The notes beneath the pieces are model-generated. The model worked only from the letters and a program-made list of their open reading frames with translations. It ran no database searches and was not told where the DNA came from. From positions 1 through 5,857 of the forward strand of contig JACPHL010000150.1 of NCBI GenBank assembly GCA_016188625.1: a stretch of 5,857 nt of DNA, given 5' to 3'. The position numbers and the translations under genes are program-made. This stretch comes from Candidatus Rokuibacteriota bacterium (GTDB lineage: Bacteria > Methylomirabilota > Methylomirabilia > Rokubacteriales > JACPHL01). The number at the start of each line of letters is the position of its first letter. The first letter of the stretch is position 1. This document shows positions 2,849 through 5,059 of the stretch, one piece after another.

Positions 2849-4046
2849 ATGCATATCCGGTTCTGGGGCACCCGAGGATCCCTGGCGAAGCCGGGACCCG
2901 CCACGCTCCGGTACGGCGGTAACACCGCCTGCGTCGAGCTGCGGGCGGCTGACGGGACCCTCGTCGTCCTCGACTGCGGGACCGGCGCCCACGGCCTGGG
3001 GCAGGCCTTGCTGGCCTCCGAGCCGCGCCCGCTGCGCGGCCACCTCCTGATCACCCATACCCACTGGGACCACATCCAGGGCTTTCCCTTCTTCGCCCCG
3101 CTCTTCGACCCGGAGACCGAGTGGGATATCTATGCGCCTGGCGGCCTGGGGAGGCGCCTGGAGGAGACCCTGGCGGGGCAGATGGAGTACTCCTACTTCC
3201 CGGTCACCCTGGACCAGCTCGGCGGCACGATCCGCTACCACGACGTCGGGGAGGGAGTGTTCGAGGTCGGCGGCGTGCATGTGGTCACCCGCTATCTGAA
3301 CCACCCGGCGCTTGCCCTCGGCTACCGGTTGGAAGCGGGCGGCGTGTCGGTGGTCTACGCGGTCGATCACGAGCCGCACGCCCGACCCGATCGCGAAGCG
3401 GGCCTCGCCAGGGGCGCCTCGCGCGCTGGACCGGCTCGTCGAGGCCTGTCGCCAGCGGATCGCCTCCCGCGGCGGCGCCCTGGAGGTCTTCGCCGCCGCG
3501 GAGGGCCAGGAGATCGAACTCGCGGAGCGCCCGGTCGCTCGAGCTCCCGCCGCCGCGGTCGGGTCCGTGGGAGATGGGGGCGCCGCGACCACCCCGGCCC
3601 CACCCGGGGTGGTCAAACCGACCGAGGGCGCCACGCCTCCGAAGACCGTTCTGGTCGTGGACGACGACCCCGACATCGTGCAGCTCGTCATGCGGGCGCT
3701 CCGGCCCGAGGGGCTCCGGCTTCTCTCGGCGGCCGACGGCGAGTCGGCCCTGGAGATCGCCCTGCGCGAGGGGCCGGACCTGATCCTGCTGGACTGGCTG
3801 CTCCCCGGGCGCGACGGGCTCGAGGTCTGTCGCGCCTTGCGGGCCTCCGACGATCCGACGCTGCGCGGGGCACCCGTGGTCCTGATCACCGCGCAGACCC
3901 GGCCGGAGCAGATCGCGGCCGGCTTCGCCGCCGGGGCGACCGACTACCTGGCGAAGCCCCTCACGCCGGCCTACGTCCGCTCTCGTGTCAGGGGCTGGCT
4001 GCTGCGCGCGCCCGGGGGCGGTGCCTCAGCCGGTCGCGCGGATTGA
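2849..4046 (+). pseudogene. Metallo-beta-lactamase / response-regulator receiver fusion, broken by frameshift and internal deletion
   Basis: The gene starts as a PhnP/RNase Z-like MBL hydrolase (MHIRFWGTRGS, then RYGGNTACVE, VLDCGTGAHG). It has the metal motif H70-T-H72-W-D74-H75, then YLNHPALALGYR and the DHE of residues 173-175 near 3366-3376. In family members about 80-90 residues should follow, with an HDAQY-type, a GWGHS-type and an HHDP-type motif supplying the remaining ligands. Here none is found. The sequence switches to the +1 frame, picking up ALDRLVEACRQRI and LEVFAAAEGQEIEL, the usual end of this MBL domain, then a Pro/Ala/Gly linker and a full receiver domain ending at TGA 4044-4046. 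The original frame instead continues as Arg-rich nonsense to 4099. The break lies at about 3373-3420. Real decay, a strain-specific deletion or assembly collapse are all possible. Confidence 0.72.
3312..4046 (+). CDS. Receiver-domain (REC) 3' portion of the broken MBL fusion
   Basis: In the +1 frame relative to the MBL start, an intact CheY-like receiver spans roughly residues 111-232 counted from the ATG at 3312. It has the acidic pocket D117-D119 (VLVVDDDPD), phospho-acceptor D161 (ILLDW), T193 (LITAQ) and K215 (YLAKPLTP). Nothing DNA-binding follows, so it is a phospho-receiver output-less module. In an intact gene it would presumably control or report on the N-terminal hydrolase. Only codons from about 3400 onward look authentic; the ATG at 3312 lies inside MBL coding sequence and is a formal, not a convincing, start. 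Whether the receiver is translated on its own is unknown. It ends 22 nt before the redox gene. Confidence 0.5.
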   Translation: MPSATGWKRAACRWSTRSITSRTPDPIAKRASPGAPRALDRLVEACRQRIASRGGALEVFAAAEGQEIELAERPVARAPAAAVGSVGDGGAATTPAPPGVVKPTEGATPPKTVLVVDDDPDIVQLVMRALRPEGLRLLSAADGESALEIALREGPDLILLDWLLPGRDGLEVCRALRASDDPTLRGAPVVLITAQTRPEQIAAGFAAGATDYLAKPLTPAYVRSRVRGWLLRAPGGGASAGRAD

Positions 4047-4068
4047 CGGGCGCGGAGGCGGTCGCCGG

Positions 4069-4569
4069 ATGGAGGGGAGCCCGAGACCGTCCCGTTTGAG
4101 CCCCGGCATGCCGGCCCCGTCCCTGACCCTCCCGCGGGCGGGGGGGTCGCCGTGGCGCCTCGAGGAGGCCCTCGCGCGGGGCCCGGTGCTCCTCGCCTTC
4201 CACCGGGGGACCTGGTGACCGAACTGCCGGGCGTCCCTGGCCCGGGTGGCCGGGGTGCGGGAGGCGCTCGAGGCGCGGGGGGTCCAGGTCGTGTTCATCC
4301 TCTGCCAGAACGCGGCCCGGGTGGAGGCCTGGCTCCGCGCCCACCCGCAGCCGTTCCCGCTCCTGGTGGATGCCGACCGCCGGGCGGCGAAGACCTACGG
4401 GGTCTGGCACCCCCTCGGCCTGGCCGCCCTCAACATCGCCCGCCCCGCGCTGTTCCTCATCGGCACGGACGGCCGGATCCGCTGGGCGCACGTCAGCCGT
4501 CACCAGAGGGACCTCCCCGACCCCGAGACCCTGCCGTCCCTGATCGACCGCGCGCTCAAGGAGGGGTGA
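4069..4569 (+). CDS. Selenocysteine-containing peroxiredoxin-like (AhpC/TSA superfamily) redox protein, UxxC
   Basis: A single frame runs from ATG 4069 to TGA 4567-4569 (166 residues), interrupted only by an in-frame TGA at 4216-4218. Upstream it reads LSPGMPAPSLTLP and PVLLAFHRGTW; directly after the TGA it reads PNCRASLARVAGV. This is the PRX-like redoxin active site (normally F-x-R-G-x-W-C-P-x-C), so TGA replaces the first, nucleophilic Cys as residue 50, with C53 as the resolving Cys. Downstream are FILCQNAARVEAWL, PFPLLVDADRRAAKTYGV, a PALFLIG strand and GRIRWAHVS, all ordinary for the fold. GGAGG (4054-4058) lies 10 nt before the ATG, supporting this start over ATG 4108. A SECIS-like hairpin follows the TGA. 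Predicted role: thiol/selenol peroxidase or disulfide reductase. The alternative is a TGC-to-TGA nonsense mutation or base error. The Sec machinery genes (selA, selB, selC, selD) are not in view. Confidence 0.8.
4216..4218 (+). other. In-frame UGA, predicted selenocysteine codon
   Basis: This TGA is the only stop within an otherwise continuous 166-codon redoxin frame. It sits between Trp49 and Pro51-Asn52-Cys53, at the position of the peroxidatic or N-terminal active-site cysteine of the CxxC motif. Conservation of the family continues on both sides without a frame change. Confidence 0.78.
4235..4255 (+). promoter_or_regulatory. Candidate bacterial SECIS element
   Basis: The arm CCCTGGCC (4235-4242) pairs with GGCCGGGG (4248-4255), giving 8 bp with one G-U pair, around a 5-nt loop CGGGT (4243-4247). 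The loop starts 24 nt after the UGA and has G as its second base. Both features match the usual bacterial SECIS rule: a hairpin inside the coding region shortly after UGA, with a small apical loop carrying a G in its first two positions. A competing hairpin (4227-4232 with 4240-4245, loop 4233-4239) places its loop only 14 nt from the UGA and is less suitable. GC-rich DNA forms hairpins easily, so this is supporting rather than decisive evidence. Confidence 0.55.
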
Positions 4570-4576
4570 GAGACCG

Positions 4577-5059
4577 ATGGTCCGCCTCGGCTACTTCCTC
4601 CTGATCCTGGCGCTCGGGGTCTGGCTCGGGGCGATGACGTTCTTCTCCTTCGCCGCGGCCCCTATCGCCTTCTCCGTCCTGGAACGCGAGGCGGCCGGGC
4701 GCCTGGTCTCCGCGGTCTTCCCGATCTACTACGCGGTCGGGGGCGGGCTCGGGGTCGTGGGGCTCGTGGTCAGCCTCGTGATGGCGCTCGGGGCCCGGCG
4801 GGGCCGGCCGCTCCTCCTCGGGATCGCGGCCCTCCTGCTGCTGGCGGTCGCCCTCACCGTCTACGCCGGCGTGGTACTCCTCCCCGAGACCCAGGAGGCC
4901 AAGGCCCAGGTCCGGGCCGCACCCGCCGACGCCGGGGCGAGCCTCGAGTTCACCCGGCTCCACCAGCGGGCCGTCGTCCTGAACCTCGTGGTGATGCTCG
5001 CCGTGCTCGCGGCCCTCGGCCTGGCGGTCCTCGCGCTCCCGGCGTGGCGGGGATCCTGA
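4577..5059 (+). CDS. DUF4149 family integral membrane protein
   Basis: This is a 160-residue protein with four predicted membrane helices: about 5-30, 49-73, 79-102 and 132-155. Between helices 3 and 4 is a roughly 28-residue polar loop containing LLPETQEAKAQVR and the EFTRLHQRAVVLN motif. The four-helix layout, the FFSFAAAPIAF segment at the end of helix 1 and the xxLHxxxVxxN motif at the start of helix 4 are typical of DUF4149 (TMEM205-like) proteins, whose function is not established. The start is ATG 4577, 7 nt after the redoxin stop, with a purine-rich AAGGAGGGG (4559-4567) inside the end of that gene as ribosome site, so translation is probably coupled. The next gene follows after 14 nt. 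Pairing with a membrane-proximal selenol redox protein is suggestive but unproven. Confidence 0.82.
   Translation: MVRLGYFLLILALGVWLGAMTFFSFAAAPIAFSVLEREAAGRLVSAVFPIYYAVGGGLGVVGLVVSLVMALGARRGRPLLLGIAALLLLAVALTVYAGVVLLPETQEAKAQVRAAPADAGASLEFTRLHQRAVVLNLVVMLAVLAALGLAVLALPAWRGS

Follow-up and report, generated by a model that had tools for sequence, protein, structure and literature searches.

A publication of 2005 already counted a peroxiredoxin (Prx)-like family that contains UxxC instead of TxxU among the known ones ('Prx-like protein', PMC1088965), and a 2026 review includes 'Prx-like thiol:disulfide oxidoreductase, PF00578, UxxC/UxxU' in its Table 1 (PMC13188914). A passage of the same review, citing its reference 66, assigns 63 predicted selenoprotein genes to a Methylomirabilota MAG (PMC13188914). 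Here we describe a redoxin gene in a 5,857-nucleotide window, the whole of contig C285 of a 2.6 Mb Candidatus Rokuibacteriota genome (phylum Methylomirabilota; 344 contigs, 84% complete). As judged from its sequence, the gene very probably encodes a thioredoxin-fold Prx-like thiol:disulfide oxidoreductase with selenocysteine (Sec) inserted at UGA codon 50.

The redoxin frame (Table 1) has a single internal TGA, codon 50, and ends at a second TGA at 4567-4569. The internal codon occupies the first position of a CxxC motif, in the context RGTW-U-PNC. When this TGA was translated as Cys or Sec, the product matched Pfam PF00578 (AhpC-TSA) over residues 13-139 (1e-25; 90.5 bits against a cut-off of 26), the match spanning the TGA in one frame. 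These data bear out the initial annotation, which had described a 166-codon frame with one TGA at codon 50, correctly in both length and codon numbers, and homology on either side of the TGA with no change of frame. GC contents at the three codon positions are 0.71/0.69/0.96 upstream of the TGA and 0.78/0.51/0.98 downstream, and the next gene, at 0.79/0.47/0.97, is of the same coding type as both halves of the redoxin gene. The 116-codon open run alone is weak evidence, as at the GC of the window it is expected by chance with a probability of ∼0.24, and the weight of the coding evidence therefore rests on homology. If Sec were not inserted, translation from the 4069 start would yield just a 49-residue fragment. 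Standard gene finders would report two wrong fragments, an annotation that the present reading corrects; the internal ATG that had been placed at 4246 is in fact a GTG codon.

Table 1. Positions of the redoxin gene and associated features in the window.
Feature	Position	Strand	Basis or remarks
GGAGG-like stretch, possible Shine-Dalgarno sequence for the 4069 start	4055..4059 (approximate)	+	Proposed from sequence
Prx-like UxxC selenoprotein gene, predicted	4069..4569	+	ATG to TGA; 166 residues including Sec50
TGA, predicted Sec50 codon	4216..4218	+	Aligned TGA/Cys in redoxins; Sec machinery in genome
TGC, Cys53, putative resolving partner in UxxC	4225..4227	+	Invariant column in 28 homologues, Sec read as Cys
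Putative bacterial SECIS hairpin	∼4226..4274	+	GUGG apical loop 4246-4249; fits published model; not significant alone
DUF4149 membrane protein gene, downstream neighbour	4577..5059	+	PF13664, 5.7e-18

The AlphaFold2 model of the protein, with Cys replacing Sec, has a pLDDT of 91.4 and displays a thioredoxin fold of the Prx/TlpA type. Residue 50 directly precedes helix 51-62, the active-site helix of the model, and CxxC in thioredoxin folds normally lies at such a helix start. The nearest solved folds in the PDB are the Bcp/PrxQ peroxiredoxins and the ResA/DsbE oxidoreductases. The protein contains UxxC in place of TxxU, as U50-P-N-C53, and all 28 aligned homologues have Cys, or a Sec treated as Cys, at position 53. 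As this alignment shows, the protein lacks the peroxiredoxin motif PxxxTxxC/U, with Arg46 and Sec50 located at the Pro and Thr positions, respectively. The earlier description of the protein as peroxiredoxin-like thus holds for its fold but not for the peroxidase motif. A UxxC pair in the absence of PxxxTxxC would indicate thiol:disulfide exchange in which Sec attacks and Cys resolves, and the sequence points to this as the predicted function. By analogy with the family, Sec50, at the start of the active-site helix, would act as the nucleophile that attacks a disulfide or peroxide substrate; Cys53 would then resolve the intermediate, generating a selenenyl-sulfide that a thioredoxin-type donor would reduce. 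The same selenoprotein might instead be chiefly a peroxidase, a view that differs on function only. It is consistent with the PrxQ/Bcp-type peroxiredoxins among the nearest folds and with the position of Cys53, which in the alignment matches the peroxidatic residue (Cys or Sec) of TPGC/TPGU relatives, but the presence of Arg46 and Sec50 where Pro and Thr belong renders it unlikely, although a serious contender.

The homologues also support Sec at the first position of UxxC. At the codon-50 column of 58 aligned redoxin sites, drawn from relatives, the same genome, plasmid records and one Myxococcales MAG, TGA is present in 37 and a Cys codon (TGC or TGT) in 13. As the redoxin itself served as query and most of the set comes from a single phylum, the counts express consistency and not independent events. 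Cys is encoded, for example, in the Myxococcales MAG (RGTWCPVC) and in Haloarcula (YCTNC), while the remaining 8 sites encode Ser, Thr, Leu or Ala, like true peroxiredoxins and the TxxU forms. The closest homologue (∼42% identity), from an independent Candidatus Methylomirabilota MAG that falls in the class of the window, displays LRGTW-TGA-PNCRKQL, with TGA at the same codon. These data are consistent with the proposal that the TGA replaces the first Cys of CxxC, and with the expectation of either Cys or TGA at this codon in homologues. A search with the redoxin protein alone among genome contigs found no relative, and none was detected in the viral contigs searched.

The codon-50 column also bears on two explanations in which the TGA is not a Sec codon. 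If the gene were a pseudogene, the TGA would have arisen from a Cys codon by genuine nonsense mutation, and the sequence after it would be in decay; the nearest relative found is too distant to gauge selection on this gene, but the TGA lies at exactly the position where homologues have TGA or Cys, with TGA in the closest one, and the frame, the codon-position GC and conserved residues persist to the normal end, making decay very improbable. A sequencing or assembly error, by which TGC or TGT was misread as TGA, would fit a source genome as fragmented and incomplete as this one, but is just as hard to credit when the TGA recurs at this codon in an independent MAG and in many paralogues and relatives.

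In the host genome at least 8 of ∼20 AhpC-TSA genes contain one TGA, as does the sole SelW-like gene, an Rdx gene at C41:9505-9717 in which the single TGA is in frame. Contig C36 comprises a redoxin cluster in which two genes ∼1 kb apart (11200-13600) have one in-frame TGA each (TTTUPLC and AGTUEMC), accompanied by several further AhpC-TSA genes. The same genome also encodes a true peroxiredoxin containing a predicted Sec, at C131:3823-4254, with the motif DWTPGU. In the GYWUPFC family of relatives, FNFVLARVP-like sequence precedes the redoxin match in the same frame, which gives the impression of a fusion to a membrane segment.

All four components of Sec synthesis and decoding that were looked for are encoded by the host genome. 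The genes for tRNA-Sec (75.7 bits; also identified as SeC by ARAGORN, anticodon tca (UCA)), selA (600 bits) and selB (381 bits) are located together within 5 kb on contig C273, and selD (396 bits) is on contig C179. The selD gene (C179:1347-2267) likewise contains a single in-frame TGA, located at a UxxK site (GAGUACKLG), and is therefore predicted to encode a selenoprotein as well, a Sec-containing selenophosphate synthetase. The selA gene was found in 83/95 of the phylum genomes searched, and in 50/53 of the more complete ones, so the Sec trait is general to the lineage. The gene inventory agrees with the initial annotation, which expected the host to use selenocysteine if the gene was genuine, and UGA codon 50 would be decoded as Sec through SelB, Sec-tRNA and a nearby downstream SECIS hairpin. 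Decoding of the UGA as Cys or Trp, through another tRNA or by near-cognate read-through, is most improbable, for although occasional Cys insertion would look identical to Sec in sequence, the full Sec pathway is encoded, TGA functions as a normal stop codon at other places in the window, and the homologues that lack TGA mostly have Cys, not Trp, at the aligned position. The Sec reading of codon 50 adds a well-supported, sequence-based case to the view of Methylomirabilota as heavy selenocysteine users.

The published bacterial SECIS (bSECIS) model comprises a loop of 3-9 nt with G in the first two positions, located 16-37 nt from the UGA, and an energy of ≤ -7.5 kcal/mol. The hairpin that follows the TGA of the redoxin gene, with its GUGG loop 27 nt downstream and an energy of -26.6 kcal/mol, fits this model; it was, however, no better than synonymous recodings of the site (p 0.28-0.35). 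As the site is 80% GC and the recodings are equal, the hairpin is not informative alone. The loose model is also satisfied at 12/13 Cys sites and fails to discriminate Sec sites from Cys sites at such GC. A stricter form, in which the hairpin loop contains GG or GU, separates Sec from Cys sites as a group. With this motif, hairpins of ≤ -7.5 kcal/mol are present at 42/42 Sec sites compared with 5/13 Cys sites, and mean z values against synonymous recodings are -1.43 and -0.22, respectively. Collapsing kin into 12 Sec and 6 Cys clusters gave z values of -1.23 and -0.06 (Mann-Whitney p ∼0.01), p-values that are somewhat optimistic since the strict loop form was picked after the loops had been viewed, although it is also the pattern of the review. 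These data show that the lineage has SECIS-like structure downstream of its TGA sites as a group. With regard to the redoxin gene itself, the SECIS sought downstream of codon 50 remains putative: the hairpin is consistent with the published model, without individual significance, and a search of Rfam returned no family match.

The DUF4149 gene starts 7 bases past the redoxin stop, a gap that makes co-transcription likely, and the two genes are thus probably expressed from one transcript. The redoxin had been proposed to be the catalytic component of a gene cluster that also encodes DUF4149 and DUF4505 proteins, but this association is not conserved. In the phylum, 19 further DUF4149 loci lack any detectable redoxin or DUF4505 homologue within ∼1.5 kb on each side (0/19), and the closest redoxin homologue has different neighbours, a DUF4149 match being absent from its genome; a conserved functional cluster of the three genes was accordingly rejected. 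Elsewhere in the window, at 2849-4046, the start of a metallo-beta-lactamase fold (2849 to ∼3375) gives way, through a change of frame, to a response-regulator receiver domain (frame 3312-4046), and the second half of the metallo-beta-lactamase is apparently lost. Either damage to a fusion gene or faulty assembly could account for this region.

In comparison with known systems, the redoxin selenoprotein resembles the SelL-related redox protein NF040769, its best NCBIfam match (9e-20, residues 15-111); membership of that family was rejected, as the score of 71 bits lies below the curated cut-off of 120. It shares its fold, Pfam family and an active-site Sec with the TxxU Sec-peroxiredoxins, such as the TPGU protein encoded in the same genome. 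In these enzymes, by contrast, Sec replaces the peroxidatic Cys and is located in the column of Cys53, not at codon 50. The ResA/TlpA/DsbE thiol-disulfide oxidoreductases, which are among the PDB matches, have CxxC at the same helix start, but contain Cys rather than Sec, and differ also from the 166-residue frame in that the latter has, by eye, no N-terminal membrane anchor or signal peptide. The closest likeness is to the Prx-like thiol:disulfide oxidoreductase selenoproteins, with which the protein shares PF00578, UxxC for the TxxU of Sec-peroxiredoxins and a bacterial host with Sec machinery, a comparison made by domain and motif description and not by direct alignment with the reference protein WP_010940744.1. 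The redoxin selenoprotein is thus a further member of a family known since the early 2000s and entails no new mechanism. It differs from the known UxxC members in belonging to a divergent subfamily, RGTWUPNCR ... YGVxHPxGLxALNxARP, here found only in two Methylomirabilota genomes. It is possible, if somewhat doubtful, that this represents a Methylomirabilota-specific Sec-dependent redoxin subfamily (RGTWUPNCR ... YGVxHPxGLxALN) with its own substrate, within the unusually large set of redoxin selenoproteins of the phylum.
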